DNA from: Pseudomethylobacillus aquaticus
Lineage (GTDB): Bacteria > Pseudomonadota > Gammaproteobacteria > Burkholderiales > Methylophilaceae
Direction: 5' to 3'
Assembly (NCBI RefSeq): GCF_003730115.1
Contig: NZ_RJVP01000004.1
Span: forward strand, 62,001-126,000
Length of the DNA: 64,000 nucleotides
Shown: one piece after another, positions 1 to 20,714 of the stretch
Layout of the letters: every line of letters starts with the position of its first letter
Numbering within the stretch: the first letter of the stretch is position 1
Made by a program: the position numbers and the translations under genes
The notes under the pieces: model-generated
What the model was told of the DNA's origin: nothing
The model's input: the letters and a program-made list of their open reading frames with translations, nothing else
Databases searched by the model: none

Positions 1-1249
1 GTGCGGACTCCTCCAGCCAGGGCAGATAGATCGCCCGCACTGCAGCCGTCACCGCATCAACGTCCGCCACTTTGTCTACGCACGCCAGCGCCAACAGAAT
101 CGCATCGTCGGCGCGCCAGCCCTGCGTGGCATAACCGGCCTGCAAGTCCGCAACTGAGCCGGCCGCCAACGCCGTCTTGGTCACTTCCGCAACCAATGCT
201 AGGTGCTTGGCGGCCAGCGCCAGCGGCGATTCACCCAACTCAGCCCACACCAGCTCACGGCGCGGCGAATGGGTCTTCTCCAATTCCAGCACCCGCTTCC
301 TCGCATCGTGCGCCGGCATATGGCTGAAGGCGAGCAAGTCACGCTGGAGCGCTTGTTCCTGTTCCTCGTTCCATTGTGGCCAGCCACCAGCAGACTCAGT
401 CGTGACGAAGAGATCAAAAATCGGAGGCTTGCACTGGCGGATTCGACTCGGGATGTTGGGGTAACGCTTTGGCGCTTCGCTGTAGCGTTCCCACACCGAA
501 TGCCAAGGCCCCTCGCGTGTCGCCAGCTTGCTGGCACCCGCCAGAACGCCGTCGGCCTGGGGGTTGAACGCCAGCTGTGACTTGCAGACCTCGACAAAGG
601 CCTTCCACTCGTTGGCGCCGCGCGTGGTCTGGAACGCGTCGCCCAGGTCCAGCCACTGCAGCAGGTCGCGCACCGGGTCGCCGCCAGTCAGCAGGGTGTT
701 GAAGTAGTCTTTGTCCAGCCGCTTGCCCTTCAACAGCTCCAGTTCTTCATCCAGAAGCCGGTACAGAGCCAGTTGCATGGCGTTCTTGGCGTCGTTGTCC
801 TGGGCCACGTCCAGACCCATGCCGCCTTGGTCGGACTTCAGGAAGGCCATGATGGTCCAGTCCTTGGCGTTCGCCTGCGACCAGATCACGCCCCGATACT
901 GCAGCTCGGCCAAGGGCTTCAAGAGGTCCGGGCAATCTTCGATCGCCCGCAGATCCTGGCGGCTCACGCCAGGAAGGTAGAACACCGGCACGCGGTCGGC
1001 TGGCAAAGTGACATCGGGCGCCTTGCCCGCAATCACGCAGCGCAGCCAGATGGCCGGTCCCGTACGGCTCTCGGGCGCGTAGTCGCCCAGCACCAACAGT
1101 TCCGCCAGCTCGCTCTGCAGGCGAGGGATCACTGCCTCCCACTGGCGGTCCTTGTCGGGCCACAAGATGCACGATGGCGCAACTTGGACTTCAGGGTTGA
1201 AGATCGCCGAGTCGCGCAGGGTCTTGACCAGATGTTCGATCACGCGCAT
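1..1249 (-). CDS. pglZ: BREX-1 phosphatase-like protein PglZ, type B (partial, N-terminal 416 residues)
   Basis: This is the N-terminal part of PglZ, the alkaline-phosphatase-superfamily protein of BREX phage defence; the rest lies beyond the left edge. I translated the minus strand from ATG at 1249 and found an open frame to base 1. The opening carries the PglZ type B pattern: a VQVAPSCILWPDKDRQWE block near residues 22-39, then GDYAPESRTGPAIWLRCVI near 55-73. The start overlaps the stop of the upstream DUF262 gene by 10 bases, so the two are translationally coupled. The metal-binding phosphatase core normally lies further downstream and cannot be judged here. PglZ is needed for BREX host methylation and defence in studied type 1 systems, although its biochemical reaction is not settled. 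The identification is strong from the sequence pattern and the operon context. Confidence 0.88.
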   Translation of the reverse strand, partial: MRVIEHLVKTLRDSAIFNPEVQVAPSCILWPDKDRQWEAVIPRLQSELAELLVLGDYAPESRTGPAIWLRCVIAGKAPDVTLPADRVPVFYLPGVSRQDLRAIEDCPDLLKPLAELQYRGVIWSQANAKDWTIMAFLKSDQGGMGLDVAQDNDAKNAMQLALYRLLDEELELLKGKRLDKDYFNTLLTGGDPVRDLLQWLDLGDAFQTTRGANEWKAFVEVCKSQLAFNPQADGVLAGASKLATREGPWHSVWERYSEAPKRYPNIPSRIRQCKPPIFDLFVTTESAGGWPQWNEEQEQALQRDLLAFSHMPAHDARKRVLELEKTHSPRRELVWAELGESPLALAAKHLALVAEVTKTALAAGSVADLQAGYATQGWRADDAILLALACVDKVADVDAVTAAVRAIYLPWLEESA

Positions 1250-3072
1250 TGCTGGCCCTCCGTCATGGCGAAGAGCCCCATCACCTGATCCACCAGCGTC
1301 GTGGTCCGCACATCGATCTGCTCGATGCTCCATGCCTCGGCCGTCGCCAATTCGGCGTTCAGCTTGAGCCCGTTCTTGTAGCCGACCTCACGGCCCTTGC
1401 TGTCGGTGCGGTCGCGCTTATCCTTGAAGCTCTTGTTGCCCAGCGCGCTGTTGAAGCCGGAAATCGTCAGGTTGCCCAGCTTGTGGACATGCGTTTCCTG
1501 AATGGCTTTCGCCTTCTTCTCGTCTCCGCCCGCGATCATCTTCACCCACGACGCGGGGATGTTGTCGCCCTGTGGGAAGATGTGTTCGATGGTCCACACG
1601 AACAGCTTGCCTTCGTACTTCCACAGATCGACCCAGGTCTCCTTGGTCATGCTCTGCTCGGCCAAGGCGCACAGCACGAACCGCGTAACCCCGGCGTTCT
1701 CCTCGTAGATGGCGCCTTCCAGCTTGCTGCGGAAAGTCTCGTCGCTGGCCGATACCGCCAGTAGCTCGTCGCGGATATTGGTTACCACGGCATCGCCTGA
1801 CAGTGCAGCCACCTTGTCGATGATGGCCATGAACAGGCGCGTCAGATCGCGGGTGGGCGGTGTGTCGGTGAGATTGCGTCGAACGAAGAAGCAGACCAGC
1901 AGCCGCGCAATCTCTTCCAGTTGCGCTACGTCGATGCCCAGTGCTTCACGACGCACCAGCAGGTACAGCATCAACAGATACGACGGAGCGCCCTGAATTC
2001 GGTCCAAGTCCTTCAGCGGCTTATCCAGCGGAGCCCAGGCTTCGTCAGTGTTACGCGCCAGCATCAGCGCATACAGCTGGCCTGCGGAGCGAATGGCCTG
2101 CAGATGGTGCTTGGCGTCCTGGTTGATCAGCTTCTCGTAGATCTGGATCAGGTTGGACCTTGTGGCCACTGGGCCCAGGGGGTCCTTCTTCTTGTCCTCG
2201 TCCTTGCGGAACGGAACGTTCAGTGGGTCCTTGAACGCGTTGTAATAGTGCCGGAAGAAGCGCTCCTGGACGCTATAGTCGTCGCCCAGATACCCCAGCA
2301 GCTTGTTCCAAACGTCGAAGTAGTGGTCCACCTTGCCGGGCTCGGTGGTCTCCAGCCGCGCCAGCAGCTTGTTCTTGATCAGGTCGATGGCCGTGAGCGG
2401 CATGCCCCGGTTATTGAGCGACTCGAACAGCGTGTAGGCATCGGCGTGGCTGGCGACCTCGATCTTCACCAGGCATGCCTGGCTCACCTTGTCGAGGAAG
2501 GCCATGATCGACGCCAGGCGATCGTTCTCGCCGTCCACCATCTCTTCGATACGCCCCTGGAAGTAGCGAAAGGCGCGGAACATCTTGCGGTTGCCCGCAT
2601 AGGCTGGCGTATCGAAGGGGCTGATCACGCCCACGTCGGACAAGACGGCACGGTAGTCGTTCTGGTTGTTGTTCTGAATTTGCGGGATGACGCGCAACTG
2701 GTCGTCTCCCTTCTTCAGCACGAGCTTGCGCTTGAGGTTGATCAGCTCCACGCGCTGGTCGTCATCCAAGTCTTTTTCGTGCAGTTTCAGCGACTGGTAT
2801 AACGCAGCGAAGAGCAGCGACAGCGTCGTCAGCCGCTGCTGGCCGTCTACCACTTCCAGCCGCTGCACCGCCAAGGTGTCAGTAGTCTGGTTGATGCAGA
2901 TGATCGAGCCCAGGAAGTACCCGGGGTCGTTCTCTTCGACGTCATCAAACAGCGACTCCCACTGAGCCTTGCTCCAGGTGTACTCACGCTGGTAGCGCGG
3001 AATCGCATAAACCACGCCTGCTTCGATGTCGAAGAGCTGCGAAACTGGATAGTTATTGACCGACTTGATCAC
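1240..3072 (-). CDS. DUF262/DUF1524 (GmrSD/BrxU-like) putative nuclease inserted in the BREX operon
   Basis: The 610-residue protein has the two domains of GmrSD, BrxU and SspE-type restriction factors. The N-terminal DUF262 domain shows IPRYQREYTW near residues 24-33 and VVDGQQRLTTL near 74-84, the nucleotide-binding ParB-like motif. The C-terminal DUF1524 HNH-type domain shows TIEHIFPQ near 496-503 followed by HKLGNLT and a conserved asparagine and phenylalanine. Family members use NTP binding to license cleavage of modified or phosphorothioated phage DNA. The gene sits between pglX and pglZ, with a 4-base ATGA overlap with pglX and a 10-base overlap into pglZ, so it is an integral operon member. 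By analogy with BrxU of Escherichia fergusonii it probably adds a second restriction activity against phages with modified DNA. The substrate is unknown. Confidence 0.85.
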   Translation of the reverse strand: MIKSVNNYPVSQLFDIEAGVVYAIPRYQREYTWSKAQWESLFDDVEENDPGYFLGSIICINQTTDTLAVQRLEVVDGQQRLTTLSLLFAALYQSLKLHEKDLDDDQRVELINLKRKLVLKKGDDQLRVIPQIQNNNQNDYRAVLSDVGVISPFDTPAYAGNRKMFRAFRYFQGRIEEMVDGENDRLASIMAFLDKVSQACLVKIEVASHADAYTLFESLNNRGMPLTAIDLIKNKLLARLETTEPGKVDHYFDVWNKLLGYLGDDYSVQERFFRHYYNAFKDPLNVPFRKDEDKKKDPLGPVATRSNLIQIYEKLINQDAKHHLQAIRSAGQLYALMLARNTDEAWAPLDKPLKDLDRIQGAPSYLLMLYLLVRREALGIDVAQLEEIARLLVCFFVRRNLTDTPPTRDLTRLFMAIIDKVAALSGDAVVTNIRDELLAVSASDETFRSKLEGAIYEENAGVTRFVLCALAEQSMTKETWVDLWKYEGKLFVWTIEHIFPQGDNIPASWVKMIAGGDEKKAKAIQETHVHKLGNLTISGFNSALGNKSFKDKRDRTDSKGREVGYKNGLKLNAELATAEAWSIEQIDVRTTTLVDQVMGLFAMTEGQQCA

Positions 3073-6000
3073 TTGGCCTTCTCCCGCGCCTTCTGTTTTT
3101 CCTCAAGGCTCAAGTGGTGGTCATTGATGCGGTCACCAACCTTGCCGCCGTATTGCAGGCCGAGCTCATACCAAGGCGCAGAGGGCACGTCGCTGCCACG
3201 GTCCTTTTCCCAATGCAGACTCTTTGGCTTGTCTCGCAGAACACCGGCACCTTTTTTTCCGACATCCGGAACAGAGAGGAAGGGGCGGATGTTGAGGCGC
3301 ACACCATCGTTGAGATCGGGGTCCCAGCCAATGGGCTGCTGCTCGATGGGCTTCCAGCGCACAAAGATGTCGTAGGGCGCCTCACCGGCCAGGATTAACT
3401 CCAGGCGCTTCTTCAGTGCCTCAGCCGCCGCCAACTTTTCCTGAGCTCCGTCGACGCCGCTCCCAGCATCGCGCTTCTGGCGGCTGATCCAATCACCCAG
3501 GTAGGTGTAGATCAGGGCTTCAAGCGTCTTATAGTCAAGCTTGTGGTAGTTGACCAAGGCGGCAAAGCCATCGCGCAGGCCGTCCCAGATGTGCCACACA
3601 AACGGGCGATTGCCAAACAGTGCGCAGTGCTGGGTGAAGAACTTGTCGCGCAGCCAGGTTTCGAGCGACTTGCCGGCGTGGTCGGCGGCAGTCAGCAGCT
3701 GTGCCAGCACGTCGTTGCTCCAGTCAGTGCCGTAGGCATCGGCCAGCAGATTCAGTAGTCGATCACTTGCTGATGCTTCGTGACCTACTGGCGGAATGCA
3801 GACGATGCCGTCCTTATCTGCATGACTCGTAAGTGATTTGCTGCCAGCAATCCACGTACGCGCCTCATCTGACAACTCCATCTTTGCATCAATTTCAGAT
3901 GGCCATTGATAACCGAGCAATCGGGCAACAGCCACTTGCAGTGGATCGGTTGCTGACTTCGGGTGACCGTGAAAAATCCACTGCGTCGGATTGTTCGAAT
4001 AAGGCTTTGGCGCCCCGCTCCTAAATTGATCTCTCGCAATGGATTGCCAATGCTTCAGGTCAAATGGGATCTTCTCAAAAGAGCCATTAGTTGGCTTTAA
4101 GGATGCATCGATCTTGCGAACTTCCTTGGAGAGTTCGCCAGAAAGTCCGTATGCAAGCAGAGGAAGAAAATGATCCTCATTGATCGGCACGATTGCGGTC
4201 ATATTGCTATCAAACTTCTCGCCTAAGTAGATGGCACTCGGCAGAGATGCCATCTGACTTACAGCCAGCCCTTTGATGCCCCAGGCTCTATTGCCTTGCC
4301 GCCTAGCGAGACCTTGACCGTCGTCACCCCAGAAGATCACACCTTCAAGGCCACCGAATTGTTCAGAATTTGGCACAGTGCTCTGATAGTAGGTCCAGTC
4401 CGGCTTTAGCTTAGCCATTTCCCAGAAGAGCCTGCTTACGCGCCCGTCATCCCCAGATTTAATTCCTTGTACAGATTTGGCGAACTTGCCTAGCAATGTT
4501 CCAGCCGCCAGCGTCTGAAGTGACACGCGAGTATCTGGATTCTTTAATTGCTCAGTCTGCGATACGCGCTGAACTTCCTGGGTTTGCACTCGCAGAGACT
4601 TTTCTTCTGAACTCCTAAATGAGCTAACGTCAATGCCGCATATTTGATTTGATGCGATATTCGCCGCGCCCCCATCCTTGGAAGGGTTGCTTACGATCAG
4701 CATCTGGACATTGAAGTCCCACATTGGCGTCTGGAAAGCTTTTGGCCCCAGGAGAGCAATGAATCCCCAAACCTTTTCAGTGAGCAACCCCTTTCGCATT
4801 TCCTCATAGGAGGTCTTGAATAGCCAATCTTGTGGCAGGACGAGACAGGATGTTCCCCCATCGGTGCACAGCTCCAGGCATCTGAGCAGAAATACGGTCT
4901 CAATCGCGGTTCGTGCTTCTGGGTAATTCTTGATGAAATACTCGTTGATTGCCGGGTCGAGATCATTGCTACTTCTGTAGGGAACGTTTGTAGCTACGAG
5001 GTGATATTTGGCGCTCAATAACCGAGCTGATTCCAGAAGGCCTTGTGCGCCAAGAGCCAACTCCCAACGTTCGTGAAGGTCACTGGTCGAGCCGGTCGGT
5101 CGTTCGGTCGCCAACGCTCTATCCAACAGCGAAGTGAGAGTCTCATGGCTTGAGGTCGCCAAGTCGTTCTTCAGACTGCGCGAGGGATCAAGCAAACTAC
5201 CCAGCAGTGGCGCCCGGGCGAAGCTCGCGTGGAGCTGTCGCAACTCCTGCCTGACGTACTCCGCATTGGGTGCTTCATCTGGCACCAGCGCCTCCCAGTC
5301 CTGCGCCTTTGCCGCGACCTTAAGGCCGCAACAAGCGATCTTGGGCGGCGGAATCTCCCGCACTCCAAGCGGCTTGCCGGATGCATCCGGATAGCGCCAG
5401 GCTTCCAGTGCCACCGCGAACACGGCGATCTCCACACAGCGCGGGTCCAGTTCCAAGCCATGGATGTTCTCGGCCAGCACGCGATTGACCGCCTCCTTGG
5501 CGCTAAGGTCCTCCGCCGCCATGCGCATCGGCACCAGCATCAGGAAGGCGGCCACGAGGAAGTGACCCGAACCACAGCACGGGTCGAGCAGCTTGAAGTC
5601 GGCCAGCGAGTCGGGCCAGCCCTCGAACTTGCCTGCGGCCGGGGTGCCGTCTTCCAGGGTGCGGAAGTAGTCGAGGTTCACCGGACATGGCTTGCCAGGG
5701 TGGCGGGTGGCCCACCAAGCGCCGAGCGAGTTGTGCAGCAAGAAGGACACCATGTATGGCTCGGTGAAGAGCTGGGTGACGGCGGGTAACTCGTCGGCGC
5801 CGATCTTCACTTCCGACTTGTTGATGCGCTCCTTATTGTCGGCCTGCCAGAACTGGTACACCCAGCCCAGGCTGTCGCTGGCCTTGAATAAAGCATCGGG
5901 CAGGTCCTTGAGCAAACGCTCCAGCTCGCTTTGGTGCTCGGGCGCAAAGGTCAACTCGAACACCGGCGAGCCGGGCTTGAACACCTGCGGCAGCATGCGG

Positions 6001-6425
6001 GCGGCCAGCTTGCCGGCCAGCTCCCAGCCGCTCTTGGCGCCTTCGTCCGGAGCCAGCTCATCGCACTCTTCGATGGTGACGGCCACGCCGTCGTACATCA
6101 GCAGGTTGTTGTCTGCGAGGAAGCGCGCAAACAGCATGCGGTGCCAGTGCTGGTAGGCTACTTCTTGTACCAGGTGCCGCAGCTCTTGCTTGCCATAAGT
6201 CGGGTTGGTGCTCTTCGAGTCGCGGGCGTCACCAAGCTGCTTACCGTGGGTGCGCAGGCGGTTGCGCAACGCCTTCTCGTCATCGCTTAGAAACGTTTCC
6301 GGCTTGTCGTGGCCGACGCCCAGTTGGTCCACCGCCGCGTGCGCAGCAGCTTCAGCGACCGTGCGGGCTGCTTTAACCGTTTTTTCCAGCGCGCTGCGCA
6401 GGTCTTTATCCAGAGCTTGCATCAT
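3069..6425 (-). CDS. pglX: BREX-1 adenine-specific DNA methyltransferase PglX
   Basis: This is the 1118-residue adenine N6 methyltransferase of BREX, which marks host DNA at an asymmetric site so that unmarked phage DNA is attacked. SAM-binding motif I is DPCCGSGHF at residues 281-289. Catalytic motif IV reads NVPY at 480-483 instead of the textbook NPPY; the asparagine and tyrosine that matter for base flipping are kept. A long C-terminal region beyond about 700 carries target recognition, as in other PglX proteins. Length agrees with the usual 1100-1200 residues. The start follows the brxC stop by 13 bases, with a GAGG-like ribosome site. The middle part (about 4000-5000) looks lower in GC than its flanks, which fits the frequent exchange of specificity segments in this family; that is a visual impression, not a computed value. 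Confidence 0.93.
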   Translation of the reverse strand: MMQALDKDLRSALEKTVKAARTVAEAAAHAAVDQLGVGHDKPETFLSDDEKALRNRLRTHGKQLGDARDSKSTNPTYGKQELRHLVQEVAYQHWHRMLFARFLADNNLLMYDGVAVTIEECDELAPDEGAKSGWELAGKLAARMLPQVFKPGSPVFELTFAPEHQSELERLLKDLPDALFKASDSLGWVYQFWQADNKERINKSEVKIGADELPAVTQLFTEPYMVSFLLHNSLGAWWATRHPGKPCPVNLDYFRTLEDGTPAAGKFEGWPDSLADFKLLDPCCGSGHFLVAAFLMLVPMRMAAEDLSAKEAVNRVLAENIHGLELDPRCVEIAVFAVALEAWRYPDASGKPLGVREIPPPKIACCGLKVAAKAQDWEALVPDEAPNAEYVRQELRQLHASFARAPLLGSLLDPSRSLKNDLATSSHETLTSLLDRALATERPTGSTSDLHERWELALGAQGLLESARLLSAKYHLVATNVPYRSSNDLDPAINEYFIKNYPEARTAIETVFLLRCLELCTDGGTSCLVLPQDWLFKTSYEEMRKGLLTEKVWGFIALLGPKAFQTPMWDFNVQMLIVSNPSKDGGAANIASNQICGIDVSSFRSSEEKSLRVQTQEVQRVSQTEQLKNPDTRVSLQTLAAGTLLGKFAKSVQGIKSGDDGRVSRLFWEMAKLKPDWTYYQSTVPNSEQFGGLEGVIFWGDDGQGLARRQGNRAWGIKGLAVSQMASLPSAIYLGEKFDSNMTAIVPINEDHFLPLLAYGLSGELSKEVRKIDASLKPTNGSFEKIPFDLKHWQSIARDQFRSGAPKPYSNNPTQWIFHGHPKSATDPLQVAVARLLGYQWPSEIDAKMELSDEARTWIAGSKSLTSHADKDGIVCIPPVGHEASASDRLLNLLADAYGTDWSNDVLAQLLTAADHAGKSLETWLRDKFFTQHCALFGNRPFVWHIWDGLRDGFAALVNYHKLDYKTLEALIYTYLGDWISRQKRDAGSGVDGAQEKLAAAEALKKRLELILAGEAPYDIFVRWKPIEQQPIGWDPDLNDGVRLNIRPFLSVPDVGKKGAGVLRDKPKSLHWEKDRGSDVPSAPWYELGLQYGGKVGDRINDHHLSLEEKQKAREKAK

Positions 6426-6438
6426 GCGTATTCAGACC

Positions 6439-9400
6439 TCAATGAAGAACGACCGGGCCGTTTTTCAGGGCCTGCGCTATGGTTTGTCGGGCATCGTTCA
6501 GCCAGGCGTCGATCTCCGCCTCTGACTTGATGGTGCGGCTGGGCAGCTTGACGAACTGCGCCTTGGGCTCCATCAGCTCGGCGGCTGCCACTAGCACGGC
6601 GTCGAAGCGCGAATCGATGGCGGCGACACGGTCGGCGAACGACGACAGCGACAGTCGATCCACCGTGGCCAGCACTTCGTCGGTGTTGGCCACCTGCACC
6701 TTGGGGGCGTCGGTGAGAGTGAGCTTCTGGGCTGCCAACAGGCTGTTGCGCTGCTCAGGCTCCAGCTGCTTCCAGTTGGTGTCGGCGTCCAGGCGCGCCA
6801 TGCCGTTCTTGTGGCGAGTCTGGTATTCGCCGTGCAGGCGATTCAACTCATTGCGCAGTAGCTGGGTGAGGCTGGCCACCAGCGGCGTGACGGGATCGGG
6901 TTCTTCCAGCAACTGACGTTGCTGCTCGATGTGCGTGACTTGCGCCACCAATACGTCTGCGCCCGACAACCCATTAGCGTGGGCGAGCAGGCGCTTGAGG
7001 GTATTCCAGGCGGGCAGGCGTTTCTCGATGCGCTCGGCCAGATCCGTCCAAGCATCAATCGCGTCGCTGAGTTCGTCGCGCTGGTTGTAGAGGGCCAACA
7101 GCTGCTCGTTGCCGGCGGTGAGGCGGATTTCTTCCAGCGCCTTCGTTTCAGGGCGTACCGGACGCGGGGCCTCGCCCCCGGCGCGGTTGGCCAGTTCTTG
7201 TGCGCTGACCAAAAACTGCGGCACGTAGGCCAGCTCTTCGCCTTGCTTAGCGCTGAGACCAACCTTCTGTAGCACCTTACGAATCTGGATGCGCTGAGCT
7301 GCCGAAACGGTGGCCGATTCGACCTTAAACATGGTCTTGCCGATGATCTTGCGTTCCAGGTCTTTCGGGTCGATGGTCTGACCCTTTTCGTCCTGGGCGC
7401 GGATCAGACCGGCCACCAGCAGCACCTGCAAGCCACCGTCGACGGCGTCGCCCGGCCAGCCGTAGGTGGCACCTTCGAAGTTCTTGCGAATATCGATGCC
7501 TTTCTTGCCGCCGGCAATGAAAGCCAGGATGGCTTTGCACACCGGGTTCTTGGCGGGCTCACCGTCATCGCCCACGCTCTTTAGGGCGTCTGGCGCGCCG
7601 TTTTGGGCTTTCTTCAAAACGTTTTCCCAACCAGCATGGTCGGCAATATGGAATTGCGGGTAGAGGCGTTGCAGCGCGTTGGTAGCGGCTTCCAGCGTCA
7701 TGTTCTGCAGGTCGGTACCCAGGATTTCGTTGCCGCCGCCTTGGAACACACGGGCGCCGGAGAAAGCCTCTTGCAGCAGTTCGCGAATCTTGCCTTCAGC
7801 GGTTTGCTTCGTGGTCTCCATCGCCGAGCGGGCCTCGGTGCCCTCGGCGGTGTTAGGCACGCCGCGTTTGTCCAGCGTGGCGCTGGCGGCCTTGAAGTCG
7901 ATCAGGTAGTGGCGTAGGTCATCGGCCGAGCGCTTGGGGATGAACACGAACACGGTGGGCGACTGGTTGCCCGCCTGACGTGCGTCGGCACGCACCGAAT
8001 TCTCGTCAATGCTCCAGCCGTCACGCACCCAAACGCAAACCTTCTCGTTGGCGTCGGCAGGCAACTGCGCATCGAACACTGGGAAGATGTCGCGCGTGAC
8101 TTTGGACGTGCCCTGGGTCAGCGAGAGTTTGCGTACCATCTCGCCGAACTTCTTGCGGATGCGATCGTCGCGCTCTGCATCCACCCGGTGGGCTTCGTTG
8201 GCCAGGCTGTTGCGCTGGCTAAGGAATTCGTCGTTCCAGGCGGCGCTTTCCTCGGTCTGGATGCGGTACTCGTCACCCACCTTCATCAGCAGCTCGCACT
8301 TGTCGAGCAGCCCGGGGAGCTTGCTGCGCAGCGCGCTGGAGCCTTGGGTGAGATCTTCCACTAGCAGATCGGCCAGCGTGTCGACCGTGGCGCGGATACC
8401 GATCTCGTTGTTACTACTGGCCAGCTTGTTGATGAGGAAGACCAGGCCGCAGGACCGTGCCATCAGGCGCTGGTCATCGGTTCCCTTGGACCAGACCATG
8501 GTCTTCTCATGAACCTTGCGCGGCAGGATGCGGGACTGCAGCAGCTTGTCGGCTGCGTCGAAGTAGAGGTAGTCCGCTGGCACAACGCTTCCGACCGGCG
8601 CCTCCACATTGGTCTGAATGACCTTGTGAATCATCGAGAGCTGATTACGCAGCTGGCTGTCGGTGCCGGTTTGGTCCAGCACGCGCAAGGTGTTTTCCCA
8701 GAAACGACGGCGCACCGGCAGGATTGGGTAATCCTGCGGGAAGAACTGGATGTCGTCGGGGCGGTGGCCGATGGTGGTGCCGGCCAGGTGACGTGAAATC
8801 TCGCCCAGGTTGGTTTGCATGACCTTTTCGACCGGCGCCTTGGCCTCGGGCTTCTTGGCCAGAATGACCTGACGGATAACGGCATCGACGTCGGCGTCGG
8901 ACAGCTCAACGCGCACGGTGAAACGGCCTTCGAGCTTCTTGAGGTTGGATGTGCCGGTGACTGCGGTTTGACCGGTGCCGATGAAGAGCATCTTGGCGCC
9001 GATGTTCTTGCAGCAAGCCTCGACCACCTCCTGCACGTCGATAGAGCGTTGGCTGTCCTCGCCGATGTACTGCTGTACCTCGTCGAGTACCACCAGGGTG
9101 AGGGGGAACTTGCCGTCGCGGGTTAGCGCCTGGCGAATAGCTTTGAGCATGTCACCGCTGGAGACGTCCTGCACATAGGGGTAAAGGTTGTTCAAGGTCT
9201 CGACGCAGGATGCTGGCGACGTGAACAGGTTAGGCTTTGCCTTGACCAGGGCTTCGTGCAGCCCCTCGGCCACGTAAAAGTTGTCGAGTTCTTCGTTCCA
9301 GTCGAAGCCGCTCTTTTCAACATGGCTGCGAACGGCTTCGTAGATGCCTTCATGCTGAAGCCACATGACAAAGCGCGCCACCGGGTACTGCTCGGGCAGG

Positions 9401-9891: not shown

Positions 9892-9906
9892 GAATTGGTC
9901 CCTTAA

Positions 9907-11245: not shown

Positions 11246-11265
11246 GTTGAAGTCAGTCCTGTTAT

Positions 11266-12180
11266 TCAGTCGGCATCAGCTTCGATCCGTTGTTGATCAG
11301 GGGAGCGGTAACCCGGCGCCAAAACAGCATTGCGCACACCGTAAATGGCAAGGTGGTCTTTCAACCAAAGTCGGTACTCATGGCCGCGCAGACTGTGATC
11401 TGGGGAACAGTCCACACTCCACTTGCGCAAGATGTATCCAGCGGTGGCAGCGCGCAGCTTCATCCGTAGCACGCCGTCGCGCATGTCGTAATCCATTTCG
11501 GTGATCTCCGGCCGGGGCTGGTCTGGGTGCGGCACCAACTCCAGTTCGACGATCCGAGTCCACTGAATGTCTTGGTCGCTCATCTCATGGGCTGCAACTG
11601 GCAGCCCCTTTAGCACGACAGGGTTCTTGATCCGGGTGATGACGAAATCCCGGAACTCCTGGGACTTCCGGTCGAAGGCGCGGACATGCCAGCGCAGGCC
11701 GTTGTCGATCAATGCGAACGGAACAATCTCTCTCTCGGACTTGCCACTTGAGATCGAGTAATAGTCGACAGCGAGAGCGCATTCCTGGTGGATCGCTCGA
11801 GTCACACTCGCCAACACATCCATATCTGGGTGCGTAAGTCGTGAGGGGCTTTCGCTGGCCACCCACGCCTTGAGTCGCACCGGCTCGCCGTCACCAAAGC
11901 CTTGTGTCAGCCACGACATCACCCGCTCGGGGGGATAGTCGAACACGGGCCGGAAGTCTGGCCCCAAGACGTAGGCCTTGCCTTTGGGGTCATAGTCGAT
12001 ATTGCCCGGAGACAACTCCTTATAGAGCGCCAAATCCCGGGTTGCCGCTGCGGACTGGATGCCAAACCGCGCAACCAAGTCCTGCCGACGGATATCCCCC
12101 ACGAAGCGCACACGCAGCTCAATGAACGCGAGCCGGTCGCGCTGAGGCTGGGTTAGTTCTGCAAGTTGGTCTTTGGGCAT
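11266..12180 (-). CDS. brxR: BREX transcriptional regulator BrxR (WYL domain)
   Basis: This 304-residue regulator has an N-terminal winged helix-turn-helix (about residues 10-75), a WYL domain (about 125-195, with the ligand-pocket signature RWHVRAF at 163-169) and a C-terminal WCX-type extension. BrxR proteins stand at the head of many BREX operons, bind an inverted repeat in their own promoter as dimers and repress it; the WYL pocket is thought to sense a nucleotide-like ligand. It is the first gene of the leftward BREX operon and faces the Wadjet operon across a short shared gap. An in-frame TAG lies five codons upstream of the ATG and there is no other ATG between, so the start is fixed even though the ribosome site is poorly placed. 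Confidence 0.9.
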   Translation of the reverse strand: MPKDQLAELTQPQRDRLAFIELRVRFVGDIRRQDLVARFGIQSAAATRDLALYKELSPGNIDYDPKGKAYVLGPDFRPVFDYPPERVMSWLTQGFGDGEPVRLKAWVASESPSRLTHPDMDVLASVTRAIHQECALAVDYYSISSGKSEREIVPFALIDNGLRWHVRAFDRKSQEFRDFVITRIKNPVVLKGLPVAAHEMSDQDIQWTRIVELELVPHPDQPRPEITEMDYDMRDGVLRMKLRAATAGYILRKWSVDCSPDHSLRGHEYRLWLKDHLAIYGVRNAVLAPGYRSPDQQRIEADAD

Positions 12181-12210
12181 TCCTGAGTGCTCTATCGGGT
12201 TAACGAATGC

Positions 12211-12240
12211 TTGTGCGGGTTATTGCGTGAAGTATATAAG
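12211..12240 (+). promoter_or_regulatory. Predicted sigma70 promoter of the Wadjet operon
   Basis: On the plus strand TTGTGC (-35, 12211-12216) precedes a TATATAAG box (12233-12240), giving spacers of 16 or 18 depending on the register. Transcription would start near 12246, leaving a leader of about 90 bases that contains the inverted repeat. The -10 box is shared, on the other strand, with the brxR promoter. The -35 match is moderate. Confidence 0.45.
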
Positions 12241-12259
12241 CTGCTCTAGAATGTGGCAA
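12231..12259 (-). promoter_or_regulatory. Predicted sigma70 promoter of brxR/BREX operon
   Basis: On the minus strand TTGCCA (-35, 12254-12259) and TATACT (-10, 12231-12236) are separated by 17 bases. This predicts a start near 12224, about 44 bases before the brxR ATG. The -35 hexamer overlaps the left arm of the inverted repeat at 12257-12266, and the -10 box overlaps the -10 of the opposing jetA promoter. Read by eye only. Confidence 0.55.
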
Positions 12260-12293
12260 TGCAATGTTTTTGATTCTTGTATGCGTTGCATTG
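12257..12293. promoter_or_regulatory. Inverted repeat, candidate BrxR operator
   Basis: The arms CAATGCAATG (12257-12266) and CGTTGCATTG (12284-12293) are inverted with nine of ten positions matching, separated by 17 bases. The left arm overlaps the brxR -35 box, and the whole repeat lies just downstream of the predicted jetA start point. Known BrxR proteins bind such imperfect palindromes in their own promoters, so this is the best operator candidate. Control of Wadjet through the same site is an inference. Confidence 0.5.
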
Positions 12294-12337
12294 TGATGAC
12301 CACATGACGGGCGATGCCCGCACTTTGGAGCATGGGA

Positions 12338-13798
12338 GTGAAAGCAGACAAAGCCATCGCGACCTACCGGCGCATGCGGGCGCAGCCGCTATGGCGTCTG
12401 CTTGCCTCGACTACCGGGCCTACCGTCATTGGCCTGCTTCAGTCCCATCTGTATGAGGGCGAGCGAAGCCTCCCTGCCTCCATTTTTCACGAACGCATCG
12501 CAAGGGATCTGGAAGAGCTGCGCGCCCAAGGCGAAGACTTTCCCCAAACGGCACAGGCGTATGTCGCCAGCTGGCTCGCCGACGGGTACCTGGAGCGACG
12601 CTTCCCGGCTGGCGCTTCCGAAGAGGAATATGAACTCTCCACGGCAGCCGTCGAAGCCATTCGGTTTGTCTCTGGCCTGGCGCAACCGCATTCCGCCGCG
12701 ACCGAAAGTCGTCTGACGCTCGTCATCGAGGCCTTGGCCCGACTTGCCGAGGACACCGACACCGACAAGTTCCGCCGCATCGACCAGCTGATGGCCGAGC
12801 AAGCCCGTATAGATAAAGAGATTGACGCCATCCAGAAGGGGCAGATGCGCGTGCTGCCCCATACAACGGCGCTCGAGCGAACGCGGGAGATCATCACGCT
12901 GGCCGACGATCTGGCCGGTGATTTCCGCCGTGTCCGCGATCAGTTCGACCAGCTCAATCGAGATCTCCGTGAACGCATCATGGACAACGATGGCAATCGT
13001 GGAGATGTGCTGGATTCGCTGTTCGCCGGAATCGACCTGATTTCAGAGAGCGACGCCGGAAGGACTTTCTCCGCTTTCTGGCGATTGCTTACGGACCCGG
13101 AGCAGGCGGCCACGCTTGATCAGGCGCTTGATAGCGTGATGTCGCGGGAATTCGTGGGGCAGCTCGAAGCCAAGGAGCGACGATTCCTTCTGCGGCTGAC
13201 GCGCACCCTTCTTGAGCAGGGCGGCATGGTTCACGAGGTGCTCCAGACCTTCGCGCGCAGTCTGAAGCACTTCGTCCAGAGTCGTGAATACCTCGAGCAA
13301 CGCCGACTCAATCACCTGCTGAAAGACGCTCAGCGCGCAGCACTGAGCCTGAAGGATGAAGTCAGGGCCACTGACGCCCTCCAGTACACGCTGGAACTCA
13401 CGAGCAGTCGGTTGCGCTCCTTGTCTCAATGGGTGCTGCACGACCCATCCCTGCAAGCATTGCCTGGGCAGATGGCAGAAGGAGACGCGCCGCCCATCGA
13501 TCTTGAGTCTGTGAGCGAACTGGTCGCACAGTCGGAAATCGACTTCCGAACCCTGAAGGCCAACGTGCTGGTAGTCCTGGATCAACGCTCCCAGGCATCG
13601 ATTGCCGACGTGCTGGAGCAGTTCCCTGCTGCACAGGGGCTGGGCAGCGTCGTCGGCCTGCTGGCGTTGGGCAGTCGGCATGGGTTCAAGGCCGACCACA
13701 GTGAAACCGTAGGCTGGGTTGGAGGCGACGACGAGCGTCGTAGCGCCCGAATTCCAAAGATCTTCTTTTTGAGGGAGCGGGCCAATGAACTGGTCTGA
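12338..13798 (+). CDS. jetA: Wadjet protein JetA (DUF3375, MukF-like kleisin)
   Basis: JetA is the kleisin subunit of Wadjet, an SMC complex that recognises and cleaves small closed-circular plasmids. The product is about 486 residues, matching DUF3375 proteins, with an N-terminal winged-helix region (WRLL then LLQSHLYEGERSLP) and a long helical centre (LEDLRAQG-type helices, coiled coil around residues 150-220). I prefer the GTG at 12338 because GGAG at 12327-12330 lies seven bases upstream and the family normally has fewer than 20 residues before the WRLL motif. ATG codons at 12314 and 12332 are alternatives. The gene overlaps jetB by 14 bases and is first in the canonical jetABCD order. 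Confidence 0.9.
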   Translation: MKADKAIATYRRMRAQPLWRLLASTTGPTVIGLLQSHLYEGERSLPASIFHERIARDLEELRAQGEDFPQTAQAYVASWLADGYLERRFPAGASEEEYELSTAAVEAIRFVSGLAQPHSAATESRLTLVIEALARLAEDTDTDKFRRIDQLMAEQARIDKEIDAIQKGQMRVLPHTTALERTREIITLADDLAGDFRRVRDQFDQLNRDLRERIMDNDGNRGDVLDSLFAGIDLISESDAGRTFSAFWRLLTDPEQAATLDQALDSVMSREFVGQLEAKERRFLLRLTRTLLEQGGMVHEVLQTFARSLKHFVQSREYLEQRRLNHLLKDAQRAALSLKDEVRATDALQYTLELTSSRLRSLSQWVLHDPSLQALPGQMAEGDAPPIDLESVSELVAQSEIDFRTLKANVLVVLDQRSQASIADVLEQFPAAQGLGSVVGLLALGSRHGFKADHSETVGWVGGDDERRSARIPKIFFLRERANELV

Positions 13799-14492
13799 GA
13801 ACGACGAAGCGGCAATGCCAGCCGAGGCACAAGCACCCGATGCTGCTCCAGCACCCGCCAACACCCTGTTCCTGGGCGACAGCGGCGAGTTGCCACTGGA
13901 TACCCGGCGCGCCCTGGTGCAGCTGCTGGCAGGGCCATCGCTCGACGGACGTCGGCATCCAAAACTCTGGCCGATCTTGGTACGAGACGAAGCGGTGATC
14001 CGTCGGCGTCTTGCCGAGCTGTTTCTCGAACTGGTTATCGACCGAGACGTACAAGTGGCGTTCACGCGCCAGGCAGATACCGGCGATCTTGAGGTGCCTC
14101 TCCTGTTGCGCCGCGCCCAGCTGACGTTCATTGACTCCATTCTGCTGCTACACCTTCGCCAGCGATTGACCCAGGCGGACTCGCAGGGCGACCGTGCCGT
14201 GGTGTCGACAGACGAGATCACGGAGTTTCTCTCCCTCTATGAGCGCGCCGCCAACACCGACCGTGCAGGGTTCGTGAAACGGGTTCACGCCTCCATTGAG
14301 AAGATCAAGAAGCACAGCATCCTGCAGAAAATTCGCTCGAGCGAGGATCGCTTCGAGATTTCGCCGACGCTGAAACTCCTGTTCTCGGCAGAGGAAATAC
14401 AAGCACTGACGCAGCTGTATCAGCGCATGGCGGCCGGAGAGGCGCCAGCGCAGCTGGTTCAGACTGATGCTGATGAGGAGGCCGACCAATGA
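13785..14492 (+). CDS. jetB: Wadjet protein JetB (DUF4194, MukE-like)
   Basis: JetB is the KITE-type winged-helix subunit that bridges JetA and the JetC heads. The product has 235 residues, the usual size of DUF4194 proteins. After a low-complexity acidic and alanine-rich start of about 30 residues come LPLDTRRALVQLLAGP and HPKLWPILVRDE, followed by winged-helix segments (LLRRAQLTFIDSILLLHLR; STDEITEFLSLYERA) and a C-terminal IRSSEDRFEISPTLKLLFSA stretch that is typical of the family. It starts inside jetA (14-base overlap) and ends on an ATGA overlap with jetC, so the three are translated as a coupled set. Confidence 0.9.
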   Translation: MNWSENDEAAMPAEAQAPDAAPAPANTLFLGDSGELPLDTRRALVQLLAGPSLDGRRHPKLWPILVRDEAVIRRRLAELFLELVIDRDVQVAFTRQADTGDLEVPLLLRRAQLTFIDSILLLHLRQRLTQADSQGDRAVVSTDEITEFLSLYERAANTDRAGFVKRVHASIEKIKKHSILQKIRSSEDRFEISPTLKLLFSAEEIQALTQLYQRMAAGEAPAQLVQTDADEEADQ

Positions 14493-17400
14493 TCTCGGAA
14501 CCCCAAACCGCCTCCTTGTTTGCCCGCGAGCAGTTCCGAATGACTCGCCTGCAGGTTTACAACTGGGGTACTTTCTCCGGCCTGCACGACGTGCCGATCA
14601 GCGAACGAGGCTTTCTGTTTGTGGGTCGATCCGGCGCTGGGAAGTCGACGCTGCTCGATGCATTTTCGGCGTTGCTGACACCACCTCGATGGATCGATTT
14701 CAACGCGGCTGCGCGCGAGGCGGACCGCAGTGGCCGTGACCGCAACCTCGTCACCTACATACGTGGCGCGTGGGCTGAACAGAAGGATGGGGAGTCGGGA
14801 GAGATCGCAACCCGCTACCTGCGCGCGGGGACGACCTGGTCTGCCTTGGCGCTGACCTACCAAAATGCGTTGGGTCAGTCTGTGGTGCTGGTTCAGGTGT
14901 TCTGGCTGCGGGGCAATGCGAACGGCAGCGCCGACGTCAAACGCCACTACCTTGTCATGGAACGGGCCTTTGACCTGCGCGAACTGGAGGACTTCGGCCA
15001 ATCCAACTTCGACATCCGAAAGCTCAAACAGTCTTTCCCCGAGGCGTTTGCCCGCGACGAATTTCGTCCCTATTGCGAACGGTTTTGTCGTCTGCTCGGC
15101 ATCGAGAGCGAAATGGCGCTGCGTTTGCTGCACAAAACCCAGTCGGCCAAAAACCTCGGCGACCTCAATACCTTCCTGCGCGACTTCATGCTCGACAAGC
15201 CCGAGACCTTCGAGGTGGCGGATCGCTTGGTCAGTGAATTTGGCGAACTCAATGCGGCCCACCAGGCGGTCGTCACGGCTCGCGAGCAGGTTCAAACGCT
15301 CGCGCCAGCGCGGGAGCAATATCAGCGCAGGGATTCGTTGATGCTGCAGCGCAATGGCTTGGATGAGCTTCGGCTTGGCGTTGATGGCTATCGGGAAACC
15401 CGACGCATTGAGCTCCTCAAGGAGCACGTGGCATCCCTAGAGGTGCAAGCCAATGGCTCAGAGGGTGAAGTGGGGCGGCGTCAAAGCACCCTGGATAACC
15501 ACGCCGCAATCTTGCGCGATCTGGAGCGTCAGCACCGTGAGGCAGGCGGTGATCAGATCGAGCAATGGGAGGCCGAGAAATCAGGGCTGGAAGGCCAGCG
15601 CACAGATCGTCTGCGCAAACGCGGTCAGGCCGAAGATGCATGCAAGAAGCTGGAGTGGAGTCTCCCGGATTCGCCTCAAGCCTTCGCAGAACTTTTGGGC
15701 AACGCGCGGCAGGAAGTCGAAAACTGGGAGCAGCGCAGCAACGCGAACCGCGAAGAACAGTTCCGCCTGGCCGGTGAAAAAAGGGACGCTGAGGCAGCAT
15801 TTTCGCAAGCACTGAAGGAGGTACAGGCACTTCAGCGCCAGCCATCGAACATTCCAGCCGACATGCTGGAAATGCGCCGAAACATTGCCGCTGCCATCGG
15901 GATCTCTGAGTCCGCGCTGCCATTCGTTGGGGAACTCATCGAGGTGAAGCCCGACGAGGCTGAATGGCAGGGGGCCATAGAGCGCGTATTGCACGGGTTT
16001 GCGCTCTCGCTCCTGGTAGACGAACGCCAGTATTCGGCATTGGCCAATCACATCAACACCACCCATCTTGGGCAGCGCTTGGTGTATTACCGGACTGGCC
16101 GCCCGGAGACCTGGCAGGCCAAGCCCATCGGGGCCAATTCGCTCGTCCTCAAGCTGAACGTCAAGGAGGGGACGTATGCCGATTGGCTCCAGGCCGAGCT
16201 GCGGCAACGCTTTGATTACGCGTGCGTCGATTCCATTCAGTCGTTCAGGAGTGCTGATCGCGCCATTACCCGTGAGGGTCAGGTCAAGCACAGCAAAACC
16301 CGGCATGAGAAAGACGACCGCAGAAGTGTCGGCGACCGACGAAACTGGGTGCTCGGATTCGATAACCGCGAGAAGCTCGGACTCTTTCAAGCTCAGGCGC
16401 AGGAGCTGGGTGCCACCATTTCGCGCCTCGGCGGGGAGATCGACAAGCTCTCCGACCAGGACAAGAATCGTGCGGCCCGAGCGATGCAGTGCCAGACTCT
16501 GGTGAATCTCCAGTGGCAGGAAATAGATGTGATCCCATTGCTGGATCGCATCTCCACCATCGAGCGGCAGATCCGCGAAGCGCGCGAGGGGAACACCACC
16601 CTGCTGCAAATCAGTGAGCAGATCGAGAAGCAGAAGAAGCTCGTCGACGATGCTGACAAGGATCTTCGCCAGGCAACGCGTGCGCACGACTCGATTGTTG
16701 ACCAGATCAAGACCAGCACCCATAAACTGGAATCCCTCTTGCAGGACGCGTCTATCGTTCCATTGACGCCCCATCAGGTTTCGGGTCTCGACGAGCGCTT
16801 CGCCAAGCAGTCAGATGCAGTCCGACTCGACAACCTCGACAAGGTGACAACGTCTGTAGAACGCGCACTCAATGCGGAGGTCGAAGAGGTCAACCGTGGG
16901 ATTGGTGCATGCGAGAAGGAAGTAGAAGCGCGCTTTGCCGACTTCAAACGGCAATGGCCGATGGACGCGGGCGACATGGACACGAGCCTTGCCAGCGCTC
17001 CAGACTTCTTCGCCAAACTGGTTCGACTGGAGACGGATGGGCTGCCCGCCTATGAGCAGCGATTCTTTGAATTGCTGCAGAACCAAAGCCACCAGAATCT
17101 GGCGGCGCTTTCCACCTACCTGAACGATGCGCGTAAGGCGATCCTGGAACGGATGGATCTGGTCAACGACAGTCTTGGTCAGGTGCCCTTCAACCAGAGC
17201 GCCAATCAACGTACCTATCTCCACATCGACGCCAGTGACCGGCAGCTTGTCGACGTCAAGGAATTCAAGCAGGAGATCCAGCAGGCACTGAGCCATGCAT
17301 GGACGGAGGATCGCGAGTTTGCCGAGGCGCGGTTCCTGGCCTTGCGACGACTTGTTGATCGACTCGCCAGTCAGGACCCCGAGCAAAAGCGCTGGCGTGA

Positions 17401-17863
17401 GACTGTGCTCGATGTTCGACAGCATGTTGAGTTCATCGGACGGGAAATCGATGAAAGCGGTGTCGAAATCGAGATCTATCGCAGCGGAGCAGGCAAGTCC
17501 GGCGGCCAACGGCAGAAGCTGGCCACCACGTGCTTGGCCGCAGCCCTGCGATATCAACTGGGCGGGAACGACCACGGCGTGCCGATGTATGCGCCTGTCG
17601 TGCTGGATGAAGCTTTCGACAAGGCAGATAACGAGTTCACCGCTTTGGCGATGAATATCTTTACCAATTTCGGATTCCAGATGGTGGTCGCTACACCGCT
17701 GAAGTCGGTCATGACCCTTGAGCCATTCATCGGTGGCGCCTGCTTCGTGGATATCAGCGATCGGCGCGTGTCAGGCGTCCTGCTGATTGAGTACGACGGT
17801 GATCGTCAGCGGCTGAAACTGCCAGAGCATGCACGAGAGGAGGCTAGCGTTGAAGCTTCCTGA
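14489..17863 (+). CDS. jetC: Wadjet SMC-like ATPase JetC (MukB-like)
   Basis: JetC is the 1124-residue SMC motor of Wadjet, which extrudes DNA loops and presents plasmid DNA to JetD. Walker A is GRSGAGKST at residues 46-54. The ABC signature region SGAGKSGGQRQKLA lies near 995-1010, and Walker B VVLDEAFDKAD starts near 1037. Between them lie two long charged coiled-coil arms with a hinge around residues 480-600. The length matches type I JetC proteins. The start is the ATG of an ATGA overlap with jetB. Head motifs are all intact, so the ATPase should be functional. Confidence 0.95.
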   Translation: MISEPQTASLFAREQFRMTRLQVYNWGTFSGLHDVPISERGFLFVGRSGAGKSTLLDAFSALLTPPRWIDFNAAAREADRSGRDRNLVTYIRGAWAEQKDGESGEIATRYLRAGTTWSALALTYQNALGQSVVLVQVFWLRGNANGSADVKRHYLVMERAFDLRELEDFGQSNFDIRKLKQSFPEAFARDEFRPYCERFCRLLGIESEMALRLLHKTQSAKNLGDLNTFLRDFMLDKPETFEVADRLVSEFGELNAAHQAVVTAREQVQTLAPAREQYQRRDSLMLQRNGLDELRLGVDGYRETRRIELLKEHVASLEVQANGSEGEVGRRQSTLDNHAAILRDLERQHREAGGDQIEQWEAEKSGLEGQRTDRLRKRGQAEDACKKLEWSLPDSPQAFAELLGNARQEVENWEQRSNANREEQFRLAGEKRDAEAAFSQALKEVQALQRQPSNIPADMLEMRRNIAAAIGISESALPFVGELIEVKPDEAEWQGAIERVLHGFALSLLVDERQYSALANHINTTHLGQRLVYYRTGRPETWQAKPIGANSLVLKLNVKEGTYADWLQAELRQRFDYACVDSIQSFRSADRAITREGQVKHSKTRHEKDDRRSVGDRRNWVLGFDNREKLGLFQAQAQELGATISRLGGEIDKLSDQDKNRAARAMQCQTLVNLQWQEIDVIPLLDRISTIERQIREAREGNTTLLQISEQIEKQKKLVDDADKDLRQATRAHDSIVDQIKTSTHKLESLLQDASIVPLTPHQVSGLDERFAKQSDAVRLDNLDKVTTSVERALNAEVEEVNRGIGACEKEVEARFADFKRQWPMDAGDMDTSLASAPDFFAKLVRLETDGLPAYEQRFFELLQNQSHQNLAALSTYLNDARKAILERMDLVNDSLGQVPFNQSANQRTYLHIDASDRQLVDVKEFKQEIQQALSHAWTEDREFAEARFLALRRLVDRLASQDPEQKRWRETVLDVRQHVEFIGREIDESGVEIEIYRSGAGKSGGQRQKLATTCLAAALRYQLGGNDHGVPMYAPVVLDEAFDKADNEFTALAMNIFTNFGFQMVVATPLKSVMTLEPFIGGACFVDISDRRVSGVLLIEYDGDRQRLKLPEHAREEASVEAS

Positions 17864-19013
17864 AGATGTTCGGCAGTTTCTTGCCCGTCGCTTTCAAAGC
17901 AAGCACCGCGAGTGGTTGATTGGTGATGCGGGCGAGGATCAATGGCCGCTGGAAGTTCCGCTCGGCATACCGACGGAACAGGCTGCGCTAAGGCAGGTCG
18001 ACGGCGTTCGTGCTTGGGTGAGCGCATGGCAAGGTTGGCAAGGAGTCGGCTCCTTGTCCTGGTGTGAGCGCAGGTGGAAAGCGCTTGGCGTTCAGCGACT
18101 ACCGGAGAAGCTAGCGTTGGGCGGCCCAGAGGATGTTGCCATGTGGATTGGTGATTCCGCGCGATGGGAGCGTGCTCAATCTCGCTACCGGACACTCACC
18201 GCTCGCTGGCCGGTACTGGCGCAGCCGTTGCCAAGGTACTTTGATGTCCTGGCGGACTACGGCGATGCCGATTTTCGTCGGCTTGCAGAGATGCTGGACT
18301 GGATAGCGAACCATCCACAATCCGACCTCTACCCCCGCCAGCTGCCGGTGTCCGGGCTGGATAGCAAATGGCTCGATGGGCGCAAAGGACTGCTGACGGA
18401 TCTGGTGGCCGCAATACAAGAGGATTCATCCAGCGACCTGGATTTCTACCAGCGCTGCGGACTGAAAGCACCTCCACTCCTTGTGCGAATGCGGGTACTG
18501 GATCAGGCGTTGCGAGCCAGGGTCGGTGGCGTGGGTGACATCACTGCACCAGTGGAAGACCTGGCGGGTCTCAATTTACCGGTCTCACATGTGTTTATTG
18601 TCGAGAACCTTCAAACGGGACTGGCAATGTCCGACATGCCGGGCGCTGTCGTGTTCATGCGTCTTGGCTATAACGTCGACGTGTTGGCCCGTTTCCCTTG
18701 GCTTGCCCGCGCAAAGTGCATCTATTGGGGTGATTTGGACACCCATGGATTTGCCATCCTGCATCGCGCCCGTACATACATTCCAGCGTTGCAGTCCGTG
18801 CTCATGGACGAAGACACCTTGCTGCAACACAAGACGCTGTGGGTGGATGAATCGGCGCAGCATCCGGCAACGGAACTGACACTCCTGACAGAGCAAGAGC
18901 AGCAACTCTATCGGGATCTCAAGCAGCAGCGCTGGGGGCAAAACGTTCGTTTGGAGCAGGAGCGGATCGACTGGGCTACCGCATGGAGCGTGTTGCAGCG
19001 GGCATTGGCCTAA
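17850..19013 (+). CDS. jetD: Wadjet nuclease JetD (DUF3322/DUF2220, Toprim)
   Basis: JetD is the topoisomerase VI-like nuclease that cuts plasmid DNA in the Wadjet complex. The N-terminal half is DUF3322 (KLPEDVRQFLARRF at the start, WLIGDAGEDQWP soon after). The C-terminal half is the DUF2220 Toprim domain with the catalytic glutamate in VENLQT near residue 252 and the acidic metal site YWGDLDTHGF near 292-301. I place the start at TTG 17850 because AGAGGAGG at 17836-17843 lies six bases upstream. An in-frame ATG at 17829 would add seven residues but lacks a site. The start lies 14 bases inside the end of jetC. The product has 387 residues and all key residues are intact. Confidence 0.92.
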   Translation: MKLPEDVRQFLARRFQSKHREWLIGDAGEDQWPLEVPLGIPTEQAALRQVDGVRAWVSAWQGWQGVGSLSWCERRWKALGVQRLPEKLALGGPEDVAMWIGDSARWERAQSRYRTLTARWPVLAQPLPRYFDVLADYGDADFRRLAEMLDWIANHPQSDLYPRQLPVSGLDSKWLDGRKGLLTDLVAAIQEDSSSDLDFYQRCGLKAPPLLVRMRVLDQALRARVGGVGDITAPVEDLAGLNLPVSHVFIVENLQTGLAMSDMPGAVVFMRLGYNVDVLARFPWLARAKCIYWGDLDTHGFAILHRARTYIPALQSVLMDEDTLLQHKTLWVDESAQHPATELTLLTEQEQQLYRDLKQQRWGQNVRLEQERIDWATAWSVLQRALA

Positions 19014-19055
19014 AGCCACTGGCCCGCAATGGTTGTATGCCGATGGCAAACCTGA

Positions 19056-20625: not shown

Positions 20626-20642
20626 GACGCCTCCTTGGGTTG

Positions 20643-20680
20643 GGTTTAAAACAACCTTAATCCTACCAAATTTTTAAACC
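20643..20680. promoter_or_regulatory. AT-rich inverted repeat, candidate XRE operator
   Basis: GGTTTAAAA (20643-20651) and TTTTAAACC (20672-20680) form perfect nine-base inverted arms 20 bases apart, immediately upstream of the ribosome site of the XRE/ImmA-IrrE gene. The position suggests autoregulation by its helix-turn-helix domain. No protein-binding evidence is available. Confidence 0.4.
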
Positions 20681-20714
20681 AAAGAGAAGCCCGCCCGTCT
20701 CGGCGGCCGTGGCG

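Follow-up and report, generated by a model that had tools for sequence, protein, structure and literature searches.

Genes and gap of the locus

The window, a stretch of 64,000 nucleotides from the 2.55-Mb genome of Pseudomethylobacillus aquaticus, carries a WYL-domain regulator gene, brxR, at the head of a leftward BREX operon and back to back with a rightward Wadjet operon.

2..1333, minus strand: pglZ, 5' part, truncated at base 2 by the window edge and followed by brxL outside the window
1240..3072, minus strand: GmrSD-family type IV restriction gene, in a BrxU-like position between pglX and pglZ
3069..6425, minus strand: pglX (brxX), methyltransferase (PADLOC/Pfam models)
6439..9891, minus strand: brxC (PADLOC/Pfam models)
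9907..10458, minus strand: brxB (PADLOC/Pfam models)
10445..11245, minus strand: brxA (PADLOC/Pfam models)
11266..12180, minus strand: brxR, WYL-domain regulator, 304 aa (Pfam WYL; solved-structure relatives by sequence)
12181..12337, no strand: gap of 157 bp common to brxR (leftward) and jetA (rightward) (alignment of related loci)
12338..13798, plus strand: jetA, GTG start (PADLOC/Pfam models; alignment of related loci)
13785..14492, plus strand: jetB (PADLOC/Pfam models)
14489..17863, plus strand: jetC (PADLOC/Pfam models)
17829..19013, plus strand: jetD (PADLOC/Pfam models)

PADLOC and Pfam bear out the leftward BREX type I operon headed by a WYL gene, and the complete rightward jetABCD, that a sequence-only reading of the window had proposed. 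The left limit of 1240 given there for the BREX operon is too short: pglZ runs past the left edge of the window and brxL lies just beyond it, and the adjoining stretch (L082) encodes PglZ of 808 aa and then BrxL of 682 aa, so that all six BREX type I core genes (brxA, brxB, brxC, pglX, pglZ and brxL) are present. To the right, jetA, jetB, jetC and jetD form one complete Wadjet type I operon in the usual order, with near full-length model matches. That both operons leave from one 157-bp gap, as had also been proposed, holds given a jetA start at GTG 12338, which is preferred because aligned related loci do not keep the in-frame ATG at 12332. NCBIfam returned no match for BrxR, JetA, BrxA, the GmrSD gene product or a 169-aa protein encoded beyond jetD.

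In a sequence search of solved structures, the window BrxR is a relative of 7qfz and of CapW and BrxR chains over 240-290 residues, 7qfz being the closest; we take 7qfz to be the BrxR of E. fergusonii. By sequence, the window regulator is thus placed in the BrxR/CapW family of WYL regulators, and its gene occupies the CapW-type (divergent) and the BrxR-type (co-directional) positions at once.

The 169-aa gene lies after jetD and convergent to it, together with an RmrA-like HTH/metalloprotease gene and an AbiEi-like gene (19056-21344). The RmrA-like gene is 93-99% identical in eight loci with three different arms (L003, L004, L006, L014, L015, L048, L063 and L127). We would guess that the 169-aa gene encodes a toxin partner of the RmrA-like gene.

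Recurrence of the regulator-Wadjet pair and exchange of both arms

Searching genome contigs with BrxR yielded 141 relatives. The best 80 (82-93% identity) were used, and the window's eleven proteins were searched against these 80 brxR loci with tblastn; six loci that lack brxR in the gene calls were classed by tblastn instead. A complete jetABCD diverges from brxR in 19/80 of these best relatives, in many genera, a fraction that is valid for close relatives only because the 80 were chosen by likeness to the window brxR. The gap measures 155-157 bp in 18 of the 19, the exception being L009, which carries an insertion. One further locus, L055, is labelled Wadjet on a jetA fragment only and stands outside the 19 complete ones. 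JetA, JetB and JetC are 91-99% identical to those of the window in the relatives with Wadjet. JetD falls into two allele classes, 72-74% and 88-98% identical to the window's, and eleven loci (L002, L012, L019, L020, L026, L027, L028, L035, L052, L058 and L113) combine a JetD of 72-74% with JetA-C of 91-98%. Since isolates are among the hosts (Pseudomonas oleovorans DSM 1045, Brachymonas chironomi DSM 19884, Thermomonas beijingensis and Marinospirillum alkaliphilum), the recurrence is not merely a matter of metagenome assembly.

In genome samples, a jetA of such likeness is rare. At a threshold of at least 95% identity it occurs in 1/398 other genomes of the order sample (G494, beside a 93% brxR); the class (369), Pseudomonadales (390; centre G369, picked for its brxR, left out) and phylum (398) samples, which overlap in part, contain no other genome with it. 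Among 44 genomes picked for a non-Wadjet brxR, two carry such a jetA elsewhere, in L113 beside a second brxR across a gap of ~156 bp and in L114 without brxR. Four plasmid records match jetA, all below 60% identity. The expectation that the pairing is commoner than chance is therefore upheld for brxR and Wadjet, in view of 19/80 versus the rarity of jetA in the samples, and not for BREX and Wadjet; likewise the back-to-back layout is not unique to this strain, but among the 20 Wadjet loci with readable cargo BREX-I is found only in the window.

The same layout reappears far from the window. Two loci (L119 and L129) have a jetABCD diverging from a WYL gene, with JetA 55% and 58% and the WYL protein 33% and 34% identical to the window's, respectively; their WYL proteins are 52% identical to each other, and in L129, which was scanned for ZorA and ZorC, both follow the WYL gene. 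Thirteen sampled loci have a jetA at 42-81% identity and 1 kb or more of upstream sequence, and one of them (L124, the same as L129) has a BrxR-like neighbour; two more (L088 and L125) were left out of the 13, their upstream sequence being too short. None of L091-L112 (jetA ~25-33% identity) has a BrxR-like neighbour. Within the class, BrxR-like genes (E up to 1e-25) occur in 49/350 genomes, jetA-like genes (E up to 1e-10) in 36/369, and both in ten (tables compared by eye). Besides the window's genome, the two lie on the same contig within 20 kb in G332 (~2.6 kb, divergent, with a distant jetA) and G026 (~17.6 kb), a proximity that fits general defence-island clustering as well. As a separate observation, BrxR-like genes of 36-38% identity face a divergent open frame of 344-359 aa in 11 sampled loci (L155, L157-L162 and L164-L167).

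The genes read in the brxR direction vary behind the same Wadjet partner. Of 23 Wadjet-labelled loci (the window, 20 relatives including L055, L113 and L127), three end too soon, leaving 20 readable. The cargo is BREX-I in one, the window alone, another BREX lineage in five, four of which share identical gap sequences, and non-BREX in 14: an Hhe/PDC-S37-like protein (four), a type III-like set with an HKD/Snf2 helicase (three, one weak, the label for L035 resting on a 33% match), GmrSD (two), a Lamassu-like ATPase behind a transposase (two, labelled from a partial match), type I restriction (two) and an unassigned pair (one). BREX-III and BREX-I, for their part, also adjoin brxR with other divergent partners or none. 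On these cargo counts BREX-Wadjet is rejected as the conserved pair; what comes back from locus to locus is Wadjet beside the WYL regulator.

The divergent side varies as well. Across 81 loci, the window and the best 80 of the 141 brxR relatives, Wadjet is the divergent partner in 21 (counting the L055 fragment). LysR pairs take this place in 13, the complete ADP-ribosylglycohydrolase protein of 646 aa in eight, a CBASS phospholipase effector with its cyclase in five and a 559-aa gene without model match in five; 29 are unassigned or fragmentary, and in five of these a piece of the ADP-ribosylglycohydrolase gene lies upstream of brxR. Partner and cargo form 27 combinations among 83 loci. A quick brxR tree requires at least 13 changes of the left partner across 54 loci, against a mean of 27.7 and a minimum of 23 in 200 label shuffles. 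For the cargo it requires at least 25 changes across 74 loci, against a shuffled mean of 47.1 and minimum of 41. Both figures are lower than shuffled yet high, which indicates that both arms are partly inherited and repeatedly exchanged.

The exchanged segments have sharp edges. On the brxR side, 76/82 matches begin no later than 11320, which places their edge on or slightly within the 3' end of brxR (stop codon 11266). On the divergent side, 19/31 loci with a named non-Wadjet partner match the window's DNA only as far as 12297-12307 (CBASS 5/5, ADP-ribosylglycohydrolase 7/8, the partner labelled c36 4/5, LysR 3/13), and 10/13 LysR loci lose identity earlier, at 12215-12245. The same brxR with ~123 bp upstream is found joined elsewhere to CBASS, ADP-ribosylglycohydrolase, LysR genes or unknown genes. 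A Wadjet locus (L020) and a CBASS locus (L008), for example, are 90-100% identical from -120 into brxR and ~45% beyond. The CBASS locus L008 and the ADP-ribosylglycohydrolase locus L064 are alike to ~-210, showing that some partners share the leader too.

Several genes of the divergent arm deserve mention in their own right. The 646-aa protein (L025:7964-9904, minus strand) has a C-terminal ADP-ribosylglycohydrolase domain and no PADLOC match, and is a candidate defence gene; with its relatives in L010, L029, L042, L047, L048, L059 and L064 it diverges from brxR in eight loci. Two large proteins of 559 and 560 aa, divergent from brxR in L037 (8134-9813 and 4790-6472, minus strand), have no PADLOC, Pfam or NCBIfam match; the 559-aa gene is also present in L036, L049, L067 and L079, and its product found no solved relative in a sequence search of structures. 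An AAA ATPase and a subtilase with IetS matches lie beyond the divergent LysR gene in L057 (4864-8386, minus strand) and also in L061 and L080, which shows that a candidate defence pair already known can be part of a LysR arm. A serine recombinase gene with two ParB/RepB-like genes (L029:4205-7619) adjoins arms of three types and is present in L041, L048, L063 and L071 and in part in L054 and L024, and was not found in the window; it is possibly a mobility module.

The shared control region

Within the 157-bp gap, three features stand out.

12185..12222, no strand: pair of imperfect direct repeats with a 20-bp distance between them, lying downstream of the brxR -10 and ahead of the start codon
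12231..12259, minus strand: sigma-70-like, promoter-like site of brxR, TTGCCA-17 nt-TATACT
12283..12304, no strand: distal block, conserved and bordering the shared core, a candidate regulatory site on the strength of its conservation

In 54 de-duplicated loci these are also the most conserved parts of the gap, namely the distal block, the brxR -35/-10 (12259-12231), with TATACT among the best conserved columns, and the direct-repeat stretch. The distal block is kept whatever the partner type, and many loci in which no divergent partner is recognised have it too; its role may therefore lie with brxR, with the divergent gene or with both. For jetA, no promoter in the gap reached the threshold of the promoter tool.

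Repeat and motif analysis found no clear operator in the window gap. Its sole inverted repeat, of 8 nt (CAATGCAA/TTGCATTG, arms 21 nt apart), is not kept in the alignment of the Wadjet loci L020, L026 and L058. A three-site TAACC operator serving both promoters was considered and dropped: among 45 de-duplicated loci, 9 have TAACC at the first proximal place and 26 have it at the second, the distal place holds GGTTA in 19 (~2% expected for GGTTA from a mononucleotide shuffle), and a matrix built from the proximal TAACC sites did not single out the distal block. In the distant pairs, the L119 gap contains a perfect 10-bp inverted repeat with a 5-bp spacer; an inverted repeat was looked for in the L129 gap and none was found.

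Two loci separate the halves of the gap. In L009, the gap is split at 12246-12249, between jetA and brxR, by an insertion of 1.5 kb that has inverted ends and a duplicated CTAG; this locus is a natural test of separate control. In L114, a jetABCD operon (JetA 95% identical) keeps the stretch corresponding to 12246-19199 without brxR beside jetA. Given this separation, jetA may have a self-contained promoter.

A probable regulatory hub between exchangeable arms

The explanation that we consider probable is that brxR and ~123 bp upstream of it constitute a regulatory hub with two exchangeable arms, both repressed by BrxR. One arm, BREX-I in the window, would be read in the brxR direction, and the other, Wadjet, would diverge from the same control region. 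The arms would be swapped by recombination, with edges at or just inside the brxR 3' end and often at the distal block upstream, so that a new defence system would land beside a ready control region. A BrxR dimer would bind the gap and keep both directions low until a ligand of the WYL domain releases them. The layout, its recurrence, the conserved gap, the exchange of both arms and the sharp edges are observed directly; binding of BrxR in the window gap, repression of jetA and a common release are what we infer, and joint control of the two arms is plausible from their position, from conservation and from the behaviour of the CapW/BrxR family. Weighing against this explanation are the failure to find an operator in the window gap, the separable halves in L114 and L009, the single BrxR-like neighbour among 13 more distant jetA loci, the presence of the distal block where no divergent partner is recognised, the earlier loss of identity in ten LysR loci and, from the literature, the small effect of the Acinetobacter brxR stop codon on restriction and the dispensability of CapW-dependent induction for anti-phage activity.

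The main alternative is a one-sided regulator, BrxR controlling its own operon only and jetA using an independent promoter, with gap conservation attributed to recent transfer of the whole block and to constraint on the brxR promoter. This would account for the persistence of jetA and its upstream stretch to 12246 without brxR in L114, for brxR promoter columns as conserved as the distal block and for the failure to find an operator overlapping a jetA promoter in the window gap. It sits less well with the distal block, which lies ~40 bp upstream of the brxR -35 and is kept with very different partners, with the operator-like repeat in the Wadjet-WYL gap of L119 and with the related CapW family, in which the divergent genes are the regulated ones (PMC9122588). 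We regard a one-sided regulator as rather unlikely, though worth keeping in view.

Two other explanations dispense with shared control. If the island were a mere defence mosaic, brxR would provide only recombination homology and its neighbours would be hitchhikers of no regulatory meaning. The RmrA/AbiEi-like outer genes, shared at high identity by L048, L063 and Wadjet loci despite their different arms, and the recombinase and two ParB-like genes beside three arm types are in keeping with this, but the constant divergent orientation, the 155-157 bp gap and the retained upstream block are features that homology alone does not need, making a mosaic of this kind very unlikely. BREX and Wadjet as a functional pair selected against phages and plasmids, close to the original idea of an island covering both kinds of invader as a unit, can draw on BREX of some kind in 6/20 readable Wadjet loci, window included. 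That idea gives way before the 14/20 with non-BREX cargo, the restriction of BREX-I plus Wadjet to the window and the occurrence of BREX-III and BREX-I beside brxR with other partners or none, and we hold a selected pair to be extremely unlikely.

Going beyond the hub with two exchangeable arms, we tentatively suggest that the WYL regulator and its two-way control region may be the selected unit, a mobile plug-board that would place two defences under one ligand-responsive repressor; we put this at somewhat under an even chance. If true, a bacterium could replace either defence and keep the existing regulation, the CapW and BrxR types of control would be the two halves of a single device, and Wadjet would be a system under regulation in this lineage. 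A kept regulator with exchangeable arms would be a concrete answer to how newly acquired, possibly toxic defence systems are controlled. A control device for Wadjet would be offered, none having been seen in the literature searched, in so far as its text was accessible, and the left slot points to genes without defence annotation that may be new systems.

The family context comes from excerpts of the cited papers. E. fergusonii BrxR represses its own and the brxA promoter and has a site made of an imperfect 11-bp repeat with a 5-bp spacer (PMC9122601). In Acinetobacter, deletion of brxR is toxic and raises BrxC, and a stop codon in brxR has little effect on restriction (PMC9122589). CapW represses CBASS, capW being consistently upstream and opposite, and CapW-dependent induction is not required for anti-phage activity (PMC9122588). 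BrxR homologues lie near diverse systems, Wadjet being named once in the list excerpted, and 29/347 have systems both upstream and downstream within 50 kb (PMC9122601). A literature search returned no paper combining jetABCD with WYL and none on divergently transcribed WYL and CBASS defense, and a term search of the main text of PMC12839542 found no mention of Wadjet. A fixed divergent Wadjet partner with arm exchange around a shared control region is thus not described in the portions of the literature searched, though supplements may list the pairing.

Of the known systems, the BREX/BrxU island of pEFER (Escherichia fergusonii) resembles the locus in having a WYL regulator ahead of a BREX-I operon with a GmrSD gene (PMC9122601, PMC8565348, both in excerpt). 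It differs in that the window has jetABCD diverging from the same gap, whereas the pEFER regulator is reported, in those excerpts, for downstream genes, and in that brxS and brxT, named in the excerpt of PMC9122601, are not seen at the window locus. Wadjet type I is matched in all four genes and their order, but the window's is paired with a WYL gene, unlike 12/13 more distant sampled Wadjet loci. CapW of CBASS, a sequence relative, is likewise a WYL regulator upstream of and opposite to the repressed defence operon (PMC9122588, in excerpt), and five relatives of the window brxR have CBASS as divergent partner. The window regulator is nevertheless not filed as CapW because its divergent partner is jetABCD, not CBASS, and a second defence operon lies downstream of it. 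In Vibrio SXT elements, too, one WYL gene is kept while adjoining defence genes vary (PMC9122589, in excerpt); there the variable genes are described, in the text excerpted, on one side, whereas the window family varies on both sides around the shared gap.
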